DNA from: a virus
IMG/VR virus record: IMGVR_UViG_3300009494_000007
Location: 1 to 43,617 of that record
Length of the DNA: 43,617 nucleotides
Reading direction: 5' to 3' (one strand)
The notes below the pieces were generated by a model. That model had not been told where the DNA came from. It ran no database searches and was given only the letters and a program-made list of their open reading frames with translations. This document shows, in pieces, positions 8,954-17,811 of this stretch (position 1 is the first letter of the stretch; every line of letters begins with the position of its first letter). Made by a program: the position numbers and the translations under genes.

Positions 8954-9523
8954 ATGAGCGAGAAGGTGATGACGATAAGGGGCCTGGACAATCTCCGGGA
9001 ATCACTCGATCGGCGGCAACGGTACGCAGACGACATACTCAGCAACCAGAGGGTGCGCGAATTGGAGTACAAACGACACCTGCGCGAGCTACTGGCCACC
9101 AGTGAGCGGGCGCGCATTGCAGACCACGTTTCAACGGACGAGCAGAACGCAGTGCGAAGGGAACTTCAGGAGGCGAATCAAGAGATCGCGCGCCTAAACG
9201 CGCGTCTAAATGCACTTCTCGCCTCCACCTCGTGGCCACACGCAATCCCAGCCGCTAGGGTGGTGCGAATTGCGGACGCGGTTGAGACGGCGATGGGTTG
9301 GGCTCCGATGTGGTTGGCGCGCGACGTGGCGCGAGAATGGGGGGGCTGGTGGATGTACGAAGACATCGACACGCCGGTTTTTAAGGAGGGGCGCTGGTAT
9401 ACGTATGGCGGTGGCCGCGTTGCCGATGTTTGTGGTTTCCCTGACACCATCGCCCCCGCCCACTCCCTCGTCTCCGTGACCGCCGCCCGCGAGTGGCTCG
9501 CTTGCAACAAGGAGGCGGTATGA
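8954..9523 (+). CDS. Coiled-coil protein with shared WWMYED domain, paralog B
   Basis: 189 aa, unknown function. A distinct N-terminal ~75 residues, highly charged and helical (GLDNLRESLDRRQRYADD, YKRHLRELLATSERAR), replaces the coiled coil start of paralogs A and C. From LQEANQEIARLNARLNALL onward it is close to paralog A: PHAIPAARVVRIADAVE, LARDVAREWGGWWMYEDID, SLVSVTAAREWLA. It is the first rightward early gene. The domain swap suggests that the WWMYED part is the functional core and that the N-terminus gives partner specificity (inference). Confidence 0.75.
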   Translation: MSEKVMTIRGLDNLRESLDRRQRYADDILSNQRVRELEYKRHLRELLATSERARIADHVSTDEQNAVRRELQEANQEIARLNARLNALLASTSWPHAIPAARVVRIADAVETAMGWAPMWLARDVAREWGGWWMYEDIDTPVFKEGRWYTYGGGRVADVCGFPDTIAPAHSLVSVTAAREWLACNKEAV

Positions 9524-10059
9524 ACCGATTTCAGGACAAAGACGGGGGGTGGCTGAGCGGGCAGTCGCTGGCGGATGTAATAGTCGAGCACGTCGGCGAA
9601 TTCAACGCCACGCGCGATAAGTTCCCGATGTGGACACCGCGCCTATGGAGAACGGATATGCGTTATATGTGTCTCCCCGGCGTAAATTTTCGGAACGCGA
9701 ATCTGCGAAGCGCCGACTTGCTACGCGCAGACTTGCGGGGCGCAGACTTGCGCGGCACGTGTCTGGCTGACACCAACCTCCTTGGCACAAAACTACGCGG
9801 CGCGCATCTGGAGGATGCAGACATCGAGTTTTCGGGCGGTTTCCCACTGTGGTGTGGTTCGTTCGACATCATCACTGGAATACAAATCGAGGCTCAGGAG
9901 GCATATCACACACTGCGGCGATGCCCAAACTACGCCACGATGACCGACGAACAGGCCGAAATCCTGCGTACCGCCCGGCGCGCGATGATCCCCGTCGCCA
10001 ACCTATGGAACGGGATCGAGACGCACGACTTACGCCGGATTAGCGAGAACGATGTTTAA
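9520..10059 (+). CDS. Pentapeptide-repeat protein
   Basis: 179 aa. Residues ~48-95 hold about nine A(D/N)LXX-type pentapeptides (NFRNANLRSADLLRADLRGA and onward), predicted to form a short right-handed quadrilateral beta-helix. Flanking regions are an N-terminal helix (SLADVIVEHVGEF) and a C-terminal helical segment (TDEQAEILRTARRAMIP). Some pentapeptide proteins mimic DNA and protect gyrase, but most phage examples are uncharacterised. The ATG at 9520 overlaps the upstream stop (ATGA), so it is co-translated with paralog B. Confidence 0.8.
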   Translation: MNRFQDKDGGWLSGQSLADVIVEHVGEFNATRDKFPMWTPRLWRTDMRYMCLPGVNFRNANLRSADLLRADLRGADLRGTCLADTNLLGTKLRGAHLEDADIEFSGGFPLWCGSFDIITGIQIEAQEAYHTLRRCPNYATMTDEQAEILRTARRAMIPVANLWNGIETHDLRRISENDV

Positions 10060-15545: not shown

Positions 15546-15890
15546 ATGGAAATCACCCCCGAGGGCGTTACAACAACGTTGGCAATTTTAGCCGCCGCTG
15601 TCTCTGTGTTTACGGCAATCACTGCCGCAAGCCGTGGGCGCGTGGACAAATTGGCAAAAATCATCGACGGTTTAGACGCCGAAAACGACCGCCTTCGGGA
15701 GGAGGCGATTGTGCTCAGGAGATACGTGAGCGTGTTGCTGGATGCGCTCCGTGAATTGGGGGCGACGCCACCGCCCCCGCCGTGGATTGCGCTGGACGAC
15801 GACGACACTCCCAACGTGTGGGACTGGGTGGTTGCGCGGACTGACGGGATCACCAGAAACGCGAAGCGGCCAGAGAGGCGCGATGGATGA
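15546..15890 (+). CDS. Single-pass membrane protein with coiled coil (spanin-like?)
   Basis: 114 aa. One hydrophobic helix (TTLAILAAAVSVFTAITAA, ~10-28), then a coiled coil (LAKIIDGLDAENDRLREEAIVLRR is the core, ~36-70), a proline run and an acidic C-terminus. The topology resembles inner-membrane spanins or membrane-anchored scaffolds, and it closes the lysis block. No outer spanin was identified. It overlaps the methyltransferase gene start by 8 bp. Confidence 0.55.
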   Translation: MEITPEGVTTTLAILAAAVSVFTAITAASRGRVDKLAKIIDGLDAENDRLREEAIVLRRYVSVLLDALRELGATPPPPPWIALDDDDTPNVWDWVVARTDGITRNAKRPERRDG

Positions 15891-16659
15891 GCTGGCTCTA
15901 TTTGCCGGAGCGGGTGGGGGGCAGCTCGCCAGTCAGTGGCTCGACGGACACCGTACCGTCTGCTATGTCGAGCGCGACCCCGATTGTGTTAGCTGCCTTA
16001 AGGCCCGGATTAGAGATGGGCTACTCGACGACGCCCCGATTTGGGATGACGCCAGAACATTCGACGGGAAACCCTGGCGTGGACGAGTGGATATCATCTC
16101 TGCCGGTTTCCCCTGCCAGCCGTTCGCAGCCGGTGGAAAACAGCGAGGATCAGACGATCCGCGAAATGCGTGGCCTGCGACCATTCGCATTATTAGAGAG
16201 GTTCGGCCCAAATGGGTTTTTTTGGAAAACTCCCCAAGGTTGCTTTCATTTCACAAACGGGGGGAAACGCCGCCATACATTCAGCAAATCGTCGGAGAGT
16301 TGGCCCAGGCGGGGTATGTGGGACAGTGGGGGTGCCTATCGGCTTACGCCCTGGGAGCAGACCACAAACGGGCGCGGCTGTGGATTGTTGCCCACGCCGG
16401 TGGCGCAGGACGGTCGGGGTTTCTATGTGATAACGGCAAAAGTTGCCCTGAAGAGGGTGACGTCCAACGAGCACCAGTCGTCTTGGATGGCGTATGGAGC
16501 CGTTTATCACGGATGGAAGCGCTCCTGGGCGAACCCTCGGTTTTCAGAAATGATGATGGGCTGGCCCGCCGAGTGGACAGGCTTAGAGCCGCTGGACAGG
16601 GCCAGGTTCCTGTTGTGGCTTCAGCGGCGTGGAAACTTTTGTCGGGCATAGAGGGGTGA
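15883..16659 (+). CDS. DNA cytosine-C5 methyltransferase (Dcm family)
   Basis: 258 aa. Motif I is LALFAGAGGG (4-13). The catalytic motif IV is AGFPCQPFAAGG (74-85) with Cys78. Motif VI is FLENSP (113-118) in place of the usual ENV, motif VIII is around HKRARLWIVA, and motif X is AGQGQVPVVASAAWKLL near the C-terminus. It should methylate cytosine in phage DNA, probably against host restriction. It is short, with a minimal target-recognition region. Its start ATG 15883 and the nested ATG 15887 share one ribosome-binding site, and almost the entire gene is overlapped by the second frame at 15887-16651. Confidence 0.9.
   Translation: MDELALFAGAGGGQLASQWLDGHRTVCYVERDPDCVSCLKARIRDGLLDDAPIWDDARTFDGKPWRGRVDIISAGFPCQPFAAGGKQRGSDDPRNAWPATIRIIREVRPKWVFLENSPRLLSFHKRGETPPYIQQIVGELAQAGYVGQWGCLSAYALGADHKRARLWIVAHAGGAGRSGFLCDNGKSCPEEGDVQRAPVVLDGVWSRLSRMEALLGEPSVFRNDDGLARRVDRLRAAGQGQVPVVASAAWKLLSGIEG
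15887..16651 (+). CDS. Overprinted second-frame protein, MTase-associated phage family
   Basis: 254 aa, read +1 relative to the methyltransferase over 765 bp. It is not a random frame. It shows the motif order of a phage family known from stand-alone genes, as I recall it: N-terminal MSWLYLPERVGGSS, then SRFG-like TPRFGMTPEHST, WKTPQGCF, SWPRRGMWDSGGAYRL, GRGCGLLPTPVAQDG, and NPRFSEMMMGWPAEWTGLE. That family is often annotated as methyltransferase-like, but it lacks the SAM motif and its function is unknown. The ATG lies 4 nt after the methyltransferase start. Expression is not proven. Confidence 0.65.
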   Translation: MSWLYLPERVGGSSPVSGSTDTVPSAMSSATPIVLAALRPGLEMGYSTTPRFGMTPEHSTGNPGVDEWISSLPVSPASRSQPVENSEDQTIREMRGLRPFALLERFGPNGFFWKTPQGCFHFTNGGKRRHTFSKSSESWPRRGMWDSGGAYRLTPWEQTTNGRGCGLLPTPVAQDGRGFYVITAKVALKRVTSNEHQSSWMAYGAVYHGWKRSWANPRFSEMMMGWPAEWTGLEPLDRARFLLWLQRRGNFCRA

Positions 16660-16664
16660 TAAAT

Positions 16665-16763
16665 ATGGCAATTTTGGTGATCCTCCACGACGCCGCGCAC
16701 GTGTCGTGGCTCCCGGAGTTTGGGCGCCACGACGTTAGGGCGATGGCCGGGCGGTGTTCATAG
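16665..16763 (+). CDS. Possible 32-aa peptide
   Basis: MAILVILHDAAHVSWLPEFG and onward to RCS*. ATG 16665 follows GAGGGG with good spacing and the stop overlaps the next gene's start region (16754). It is short, and nothing but position and ribosome-binding site supports it. Confidence 0.35.
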   Translation: MAILVILHDAAHVSWLPEFGRHDVRAMAGRCS

Positions 16764-17572
16764 TGCGCGGGGCGGAGATTGTTATCAACGAGTGGCGCGA
16801 TCCGGTGCGCCTGATACTGGTTGGTGATTTGCACTTGGGCCACGCGGCCACGGATGAAAAAATGATCGCGGCCACCTGTGCCCAATTGGAGGAGCCGCGC
16901 ACATATTGGGTGAACCTCGGGGACACGATTGATGCGATAAACCGCGCTGACCCGCGCTTTGATCCACGTTCGTGCGCTGAGTGGATCGGCGTTCGAGATT
17001 TGGCCGACATAGCCGGGGCGCAGATTGCGCGCTATCGCCATTACTTTGGGCGACTTGGTGGAACGTGCCTGGCGTCCGTTATCGGCAACCACGAAAGTGC
17101 AATCCAAAAACACAGCGAGCGCGACGTGTACGGGGCGCTCAATCAGGCCATCGGGCTGCCGGAGCCGCGCGCGCTAGGATTGTCTGGATTTTTGCGGCTT
17201 CGTTTCCGCCGCGTATTGAGCAGCGGGAAACACCAAGACACCTGGACGCAAACCCTATATCTGCATCACGGGTTTGGCGGTGGGCGGTTGATGGGAGCCA
17301 AGGCGATCAAATTGGAGCGTCTTCCGGCCTCGTATCGGGCAGATATTTATGCCATCGGGCACACGCACTCGAAGTTGGCATTTTCAAAAACCATCACTTC
17401 GCTGCCTTCCAGGGGGACACGGATTGAGGAGCGCGCAGTGTGGATGATAAACACGGGGGCCTATTTGGGCCTGGCCGCATATGCAGAGGCGAAAGGGTAT
17501 TCGCCCCAAGCGCGCGGCCCCGTGATGCTGACGTTTCATCCGTCTGAGCGGCGCGTGGAGGTGACATTGTGA
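16754..17572 (+). CDS. Calcineurin-like metallophosphoesterase
   Basis: 272 aa. The metal-binding motifs occur in order: GDLHLGH (24-30), LGDTID (55-60), IGNHES (110-115), LHHGFGGGR (~178-186) and IGHTHS (~203-208). These enzymes use two metals to cleave phosphoester bonds in nucleotides, RNA or proteins; the substrate here is unknown. GTG 16754 is the likely start (ATAG-GTG context with a weak G-rich site). It sits between the methyltransferase pair and a glycyl-radical-type domain, so nucleotide or DNA-modification chemistry is a reasonable guess. Confidence 0.85.
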   Translation: MFIVRGAEIVINEWRDPVRLILVGDLHLGHAATDEKMIAATCAQLEEPRTYWVNLGDTIDAINRADPRFDPRSCAEWIGVRDLADIAGAQIARYRHYFGRLGGTCLASVIGNHESAIQKHSERDVYGALNQAIGLPEPRALGLSGFLRLRFRRVLSSGKHQDTWTQTLYLHHGFGGGRLMGAKAIKLERLPASYRADIYAIGHTHSKLAFSKTITSLPSRGTRIEERAVWMINTGAYLGLAAYAEAKGYSPQARGPVMLTFHPSERRVEVTL

Positions 17573-17811
17573 CAGAAAGGCAGGTGACGCATTGGGTCGC
17601 TGGCGTCTGTGAACATTGCGGCGGCGAATTAATCGCAAACGGAACAACGGTGACGTGTTCTGGCTGTGGACACGCGGTCGAGATCGGCATCCCGTGCGAG
17701 GTGTACTCGCGCATTGTCGGGTACCTGCGCCCGGTGCAAAACTGGAACGTTGCCAAGCAGCAGGAGTTCGAAGATCGCAAAACTTTTGAGGCGGCGCTCG
17801 ATGATACGTGA
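17569..17811 (+). CDS. Stand-alone NrdD C-terminal-like glycyl radical domain
   Basis: 80 aa. Two CxxC pairs (C14/C17 and C30/C33) form a probable zinc site, followed by C43 and YSRIVGYLRPVQNWNVAKQQ with Gly51. This matches the C-terminal domain of class III (anaerobic) ribonucleotide reductase, where the Zn site precedes an RVxGY glycyl-radical loop and a WNxGKxxEFxxR tail. The large catalytic part of NrdD is absent from the window. It could be a spare part repairing a cleaved host NrdD, by analogy with GrcA/YfiD for pyruvate formate-lyase, or a domain reused for another role. GTG 17569 overlaps the upstream stop. Confidence 0.7.
   Translation: MTERQVTHWVAGVCEHCGGELIANGTTVTCSGCGHAVEIGIPCEVYSRIVGYLRPVQNWNVAKQQEFEDRKTFEAALDDT

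Follow-up and report, generated by a model that had tools for sequence, protein, structure and literature searches.

A phage C5-cytosine methyltransferase gene with a conserved, overprinted second frame that probably encodes a partner subunit

The methyltransferase locus and its second frame

The stretch of DNA analysed here, referred to as the window, is the 43,617-base virus record IMGVR_UViG_3300009494_000007. Its genes include those for a DnaB-like helicase, a terminase, a portal and a head protease, a set which indicates that the source is a tailed phage. Also encoded are a pentapeptide-repeat protein (PF00805; positions 9493-10059) and a bactofilin-like protein (PF04519; 27508-28560). 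The feature under study is a methyltransferase frame, F1, together with a second frame, F2, which lies entirely within it at +1 phase, codon position 1 of F2 falling on position 2 of F1; F3 denotes the third frame of the same strand (Table 1). The next gene downstream of F1 (16754-17572) matches phrog_7339 (DNA repair exonuclease) and is followed by a small protein (17569-17811) matching the C-terminus of anaerobic ribonucleotide reductase (PF13597).

Table 1. Features of the F1/F2 locus in the window
Feature	Position	Strand	Basis
F1, C5-cytosine methyltransferase catalytic polypeptide, 258 aa, motifs I-VIII and X, short variable region	15883..16659	+	PF00145, E 7e-30; phrog_363, 2.5e-52; matches to M.HhaI and M.HaeIII
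F2, overprinted +1-frame polypeptide, 254 aa, putative second subunit (variable region and motif IX)	15887..16651	+	Open in 76/80 relatives; phrog_1008; hhalign to actinophage beta, 99.4%
AGAGAGG, Shine-Dalgarno-like, could serve both starts	15872..15878	+	Sequence; use presumed
Double start ATGGATG (F1 ATG 15883, F2 ATG 15887)	15883..15889	+	Pattern [A/G/T]TG-N-ATGAG[CT]TGG opens 168 related loci
F1 motif I, FAGAGGG, overlapping the F2 start region MSWLYLPER	15901..15921	+	Sequence
F1 motif IV, catalytic PCQ	16111..16119	+	P77 and C78 invariant in the relatives' alignment
F1 motif VI, ENS	16225..16233	+	E115 and N116 invariant
F1 motif VIII, RARLWIVA	16369..16392	+	R163 and R165 invariant
F2 LLPTP element	16385..16399	+	Occurs more than once in longer relatives; shares the catalytic-domain frame in actinophages
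Segment where F2 constraint outweighs F1 constraint (F1 codons 176-226)	16408..16560	+	Substitution pattern, four-fold sites, amino acid identity
F2 tail NPRFSEMMMGWPAEWT, putative motif IX equivalent, overlapping F1 DDGLARRVDR	16532..16579	+	hhalign through actinophage C-termini
F1 motif X, GQGQVP	16594..16611	+	Near-invariant in relatives

The methyltransferase motifs that the initial annotation had read in F1 (FAGAGGG, FPCQPFAAGG, ENSP and, near the end, QVP) are all present, and F2 is, as it had described, open for 254 codons, its start codon separated from that of F1 by 4 nt (ATGGATGAGC). What could be recovered of the ribosome-binding site that both frames had been said to share is the Shine-Dalgarno-like sequence itself, its use for either start being presumptive. 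A Shine-Dalgarno-like 4-mer also precedes the start in 139 of 168 related loci.

In F1, motifs I, IV (PCQ), VI (ENS or ENV), VIII and X occur all in order, and they are near-invariant among its relatives. The PF00145 match covers only model positions 4-162 of 324, and the F1 polypeptide has neither a target-recognition domain (TRD) of normal length nor motif IX. The spacing between motifs VIII and X is 70 aa in F1, with a median of 90 in 123 relatives and a value of 135 in M.HhaI (reference sequence of length 327, as in the PDB).

F2 matched PHROG families only: phrog_1008 (E 1.9e-13), which 81 of 84 relatives also match, phrog_26627 (4.8e-7) and PHROG 35493. No match to F2 was found among the Pfam and NCBIfam models, nor did its profile match PDB sequences or Pfam. 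An AlphaFold2 model of F2 alone, with 84 relatives in the alignment, reached a pLDDT of 54, and only residues about 210-252 were confident.

Both frames are open and under purifying constraint

Relatives were drawn from viral contigs by F1 alignment alone, F2 having no role in the choice, and the 80 best loci were taken. The expected number of stops was obtained by synonymous-codon shuffling within each gene, with the ends trimmed. In the window gene F2 has no stops when 4.4 were expected (P=0.001), and F3 has 13 against 11.4 expected. Across the 80 loci, 7 internal F2 stops were counted versus 335 expected, a depletion of about 48-fold which holds also in genes of 43-50% G+C; F2 was fully open in 76 of these loci and began with MSW exactly 4 nt past the F1 start in 57. 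Of the four loci that are not fully open, two (L098 and L100) have an F2 starting about 27 codons later, one (L114) is a rearranged form and one (L121) a frameshifted copy. F3 showed no depletion (1005 stops, 904 expected), and the controls were flat, both for 217 other genes on the same contigs (2324 stops, 2292 expected) and for 24 ordinary C5-methyltransferases, mostly from unselected Pseudomonadota genomes (213 stops, 229 expected); the few open control methyltransferases were either very GC-rich or belonged to genomes picked on the basis of F2. Note that the loci derived with F2 gave 126 stops against 527 expected, most of the 126 being natural F2 ends, and that some of the F1-chosen loci recur among them, so the two sets are not independent samples. 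The synonymous shuffles, F3, the flank genes and the ordinary methyltransferases together rule out chance or composition as the cause of the open frame.

We then asked how the two frames vary, using 16 independent pairs that share flank genes, with the flank genes of the same pairs as the control. Differences at codon positions 1, 2 and 3 were 0.23, 0.16 and 0.62 in the flank genes and 0.38, 0.19 and 0.43 in the methyltransferase. Four-fold sites coding for the same amino acid had changed at a rate of 0.138 in F1 versus 0.286 in the flank genes, a conservative comparison given that the flank set may include spurious ORFs. Within F1 codons 176-226 the position differences became 0.54, 0.24 and 0.22, and the four-fold change fell to 0.065 versus the same 0.286. 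Since position 3 of F1 is position 2 of F2, and position 1 of F1 is position 3 of F2, this segment varies like a gene read in F2.

Amino acid identities led to the same picture. In 51 independent pairs, F2 identity over F1 codons 176-226 was 0.63-0.73 and F1 identity 0.42-0.61; outside this segment F1 was more conserved than F2. The F2 identity also exceeded the value obtained when changed codons were redrawn among synonyms (0.63 vs 0.49, 0.73 vs 0.61). These regional identities indicate that F1 constraint dominates over motifs I-VIII and X, and F2 constraint over the variable region. Because the N-terminal half of F2 overlies the conserved F1 core, part of the F2 conservation, including FSETWP.WGM, is a shadow of F1. 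The FSETWP.WGM.R.G element, a +1 shadow of the F1 sequence GYDA.W, was accordingly dropped as independent support for F2.

From this sequence comparison, both frames are open and under purifying constraint. The dual coding over about 765 bp that had been proposed for this gene is thus strongly supported, by the stop counts with their flat controls and by the reduced four-fold change. The dual-frame test suggested with it, on aligned relatives, gave reduced synonymous change and an F2-type rate pattern at codons 176-226, and the relatives do not introduce the F2 stops that would have spoken against it.

Distribution of F2 and its module in fused and split relatives

An F1 methyltransferase underlies F2, always in the same phase, in 98/98 viral loci, in 80/80 loci from bacterial or archaeal genomes and in about 45 further phage or plasmid loci. 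No F2 homologue outside a methyltransferase gene was found in the 178 viral and bacterial/archaeal loci or in the further phage and plasmid records. The initial annotation had taken F2 for a phage family known from independent genes; on the contrary, every relative examined (over 200 loci) overlies F1 in the same phase. The absence of F2 homologues outside methyltransferase genes, one half of what it had named as refuting its reading, thus holds, yet dual coding is not thereby refuted.

The independent look of F2 comes from gene callers, which annotate it instead of F1, and from PHROG 1008. F2 is listed in place of F1 in a Vibrio phage (AUR97051.1) and a Stenotrophomonas phage (WWO60469.1); some phages have F1 annotated, others F2, and a few have both ('g55 internal gene'). 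PHROG 1008, 26627 and 35493 appear to be the F2 (+1-frame) product or its tail, and the PHROG 1008 label 'DNA methyltransferase' spreads into phage annotation, for instance that of WWO60469.1. We found no account of this dual coding or of the F2 family in the open-licence papers searched.

The arrangement is found conserved across hundreds of phages; it is widespread among phages and prophages of many phyla, with loci in Vibrio, Acinetobacter, Pseudomonas, Paenibacillus, Lacticaseibacillus, Bacteroides and archaea, among others. A second type of F2, starting with LTLFP, occurs in phages of Paenibacillus and other Firmicutes (43-62% G+C); the methyltransferases on which it is overprinted are of canonical size and form a different branch, and it starts about 60 codons inside F1. 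Two archaeal MAG contigs, one assigned to Poseidoniaceae and one to another Euryarchaeota genome (L206 and L257), carry the overprinted pair and possibly represent archaeal viruses or proviruses.

The F2 module was also found outside the overprinted layout, in the methyltransferases of actinophages, and only the part of F2 near or downstream of motif VIII is homologous to these enzymes. In the mycobacteriophages Silvy (gp53) and mcgavigan, the catalytic domain, the F2 module and motif X follow one another in a single ORF, with the module between motifs VIII and X. In the Corndog-type Mycobacterium phage YungJamal, gene 7 stops directly after motif VIII, and gene 6, at +1 phase and with a 209-bp overlap, consists of the F2 module and then motif X; hhalign of the F2 profile against gene 6 gave 99.4% (E 5.8e-21, 145 columns). 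Eidsmoe 83/82 and Wile 75/74 are split in a like manner at +1 phase, with overlaps of 50 and 11 bp and motif X in the second gene. Among related viral-contig loci, 20 are single-ORF and 5 are split in +1 phase. Moreover, in two loci grouped in the tree with the neighbours of the window gene (L114 and L129), the F1 frame ends past motif VIII, and MGWP and motif X are both encoded in the F2 frame. The description of F1 and F2 as two known families is therefore misleading: in actinophage methyltransferases the catalytic domain and the C-terminal module of F2 share one reading frame, so that F2 appears to be a further part of that enzyme.

F2 ends in the block MG[WF]P..W, which appears to correspond to motif IX. 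By hhalign, the F2 tail matched the actinophage C-terminus (96.8%, E 2.8e-10), and the actinophage C-terminus matched motifs IX-X of ordinary methyltransferases (86.7%, E 4.4e-6). When compared directly with motif IX of ordinary methyltransferases, the F2 tail gave no significant match (0.7%), and its identity as motif IX goes solely by way of the actinophage intermediates. The predicted structure of L431, a single-ORF relative, matches both M.HhaI and M.HaeIII overall, with a modest TM-score (about 0.5) and an unconfident linker; it shows only that an F2-like module forms part of a methyltransferase with the usual layout.

A maximum-likelihood tree built on the catalytic domain has a branch with 100/99 support that parts 20 ordinary enzymes from all 80 F2-type methyltransferases, which comprise overprinted, split and fused forms. 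The F2 module may have a single origin in this clade.

Some single-ORF mycobacteriophage genes (L396, L400-L412 and others) have a +1 open frame of 100-200 codons with a FSETWPTSGMTRNG-like element over motifs VII-VIII, which persists although the F2 module is fused in frame downstream. Single-ORF mycobacteriophage genes likewise have the FSETWP.WGM.R.G element open at +1.

A probable two-polypeptide methyltransferase and the alternatives

Our results make it probable that the locus encodes one two-polypeptide C5-cytosine DNA methyltransferase. F1 would be the catalytic polypeptide, with motifs I-VIII and X, and its VIII-to-X interval leaves little room for a normal target-recognition domain. 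F2, starting 4 nt later, would be translated as the partner that binds F1 and reads the DNA target, contributing the variable (target-recognition) region together with the motif IX element. Both polypeptides would associate into an active enzyme, most likely one that methylates the phage genome, and an anti-restriction purpose is suggested since phage methyltransferases commonly counter restriction. The layout of a start codon, one base and an ATG could let one ribosome-binding site serve both frames and thereby fix the subunit ratio. That the second product acts with the methyltransferase had been raised in the initial annotation, and it gains support at the sequence level from the F2 module standing at the VIII-to-X position in single-ORF relatives and from motif X lying in the F2 frame of split ones.

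M.EcoHK31I is a known two-polypeptide C5-methyltransferase, specific for YGGCCR. Its small polypeptide reportedly comes from a different reading frame that overlaps the gene for the large one. By its published description, the large subunit has motifs I-VIII and X, and motif IX is in the small polypeptide (PMC3404938), a distribution close to the one that we propose for F1 and F2. The predicted TRD of M.EcoHK31I was assigned to its large subunit (PMC3404938), so this precedent does not give F2 its proposed role in target recognition; F1 keeps a 70-aa variable stretch between VIII and X, and constraint in that stretch follows F2. The window pair differs from M.EcoHK31I in an overlap that spans nearly the whole gene, in starts separated by 4 nt, in an F1 variable region that is short, with the conserved variable region in F2, and in the wide spread of the arrangement across phages and prophages from many phyla. 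M.AquI consists of two polypeptides with the break in the variable region (PMC3404938), resembling the YungJamal, Eidsmoe and Wile gene pairs and L114/L129; in contrast to its small subunit, which has motifs IX-X, it is F1 that retains motif X in the window, and the pair is fully overprinted. The actinophage methylases share with the window a homologous catalytic domain and the F2 module, whereas there the module shares its frame with motif X and either continues the catalytic domain as a fusion or overlaps it by only 11-209 bp. The F2 family itself is what PHROG 1008 and the 'g55 internal gene' of a Paenibacillus phage (YP_009598579.1) represent; their annotation, as a methyltransferase or an internal gene, explains neither how the frames relate nor what the product does.

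Other readings of F2 were weighed against this one. F2 could be genuinely overprinted and have a separate function, for example as a regulator, an inhibitor or an anti-restriction factor carried in the methyltransferase gene. This would suit its lack of Pfam, NCBIfam and PDB matches and its mostly unstructured model, and also four loci that retain an intact F2 with one F1 stop each (TGA in L036 and L193, TAA in L185, TAG in L217; just past motif VIII in L185 and L217), which could reflect either a use of F2 of its own or decay. We nevertheless consider it unlikely, since F2 is never found away from F1, its module sits inside the methyltransferase and is joined to motif X in the single-ORF and split actinophage enzymes, and motif X is carried by the F2 frame in L114/L129. 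It is also quite improbable that F2 has no initiation of its own and that a +1 ribosome shift inside F1, near motif VIII, yields one fused catalytic-plus-F2 polypeptide. The first 170 F2 codons are open and stop-poor, which is needless for a shift at motif VIII; the F2 ATG lies exactly at +4 in most loci, often directly after an in-frame TGA (fourth base A in 151 of 168); and the F2 of the Paenibacillus type starts well inside F1. These features outweigh, in our opinion, what speaks for such a shift: the existence of single-ORF fusions of the same modules, the +1 phase of nearly all overlapping forms and the confinement of actinophage homology to F2 near and downstream of motif VIII.

Finally, F2 might be an untranslated shadow, its open frame resulting from the F1 amino acid sequence, base composition or codon bias and its conservation being copied from F1. 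F2 does contain motifs that mirror conserved F1 ones (MSWLY from ELALF, GM.R from GYDA), and high-G+C genes often have a long second frame, but the stop depletion against synonymous shuffles, present also at moderate G+C and with flat controls, as well as the slow four-fold sites of F1 and the F2-like rates over codons 176-226, make this reading scarcely credible, and as the main cause it is already contradicted.

Turning back to the two-subunit enzyme, we lean on balance towards extending it to a large clade of phage C5-methyltransferases, in which a catalytic subunit and a subunit with the TRD region and motif IX would be encoded in two frames of the same DNA, in layouts ranging from in-frame fusion via short overlap to full overprinting. 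If so, splitting by overprinting could be traced stepwise along this series, which forms a natural test of how enzymes are split and how overprinting evolves. To our knowledge, bacteria and their phages very rarely have whole genes that overlap on the same strand and are conserved across phyla, and the product of most known overlapping genes has no relation to the host gene; at this locus, one stretch of DNA appears to encode two pieces of one enzyme. This would explain why these phage methyltransferases seem too short for a recognition domain, and why phage databases hold a 'DNA methyltransferase' family devoid of methyltransferase motifs. Annotators have so far recorded the conserved arrangement as duplicate genes or as genes with no relation to each other; to annotate such enzymes or predict their recognition sites, both frames would have to be used.

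Two further loci depart from the common layout. A Bacteroides finegoldii plasmid (NZ_OY725930; L395:1269-2378) has two in-frame TGA codons in F1, at positions where its relatives have Trp, and an open F2; either TGA recoding or a decaying copy would account for them. In L330:1709-2743, a frameshift puts the F1 N-terminus in frame with F2 and creates a chimeric ORF, which is either an assembly error or a real fusion.
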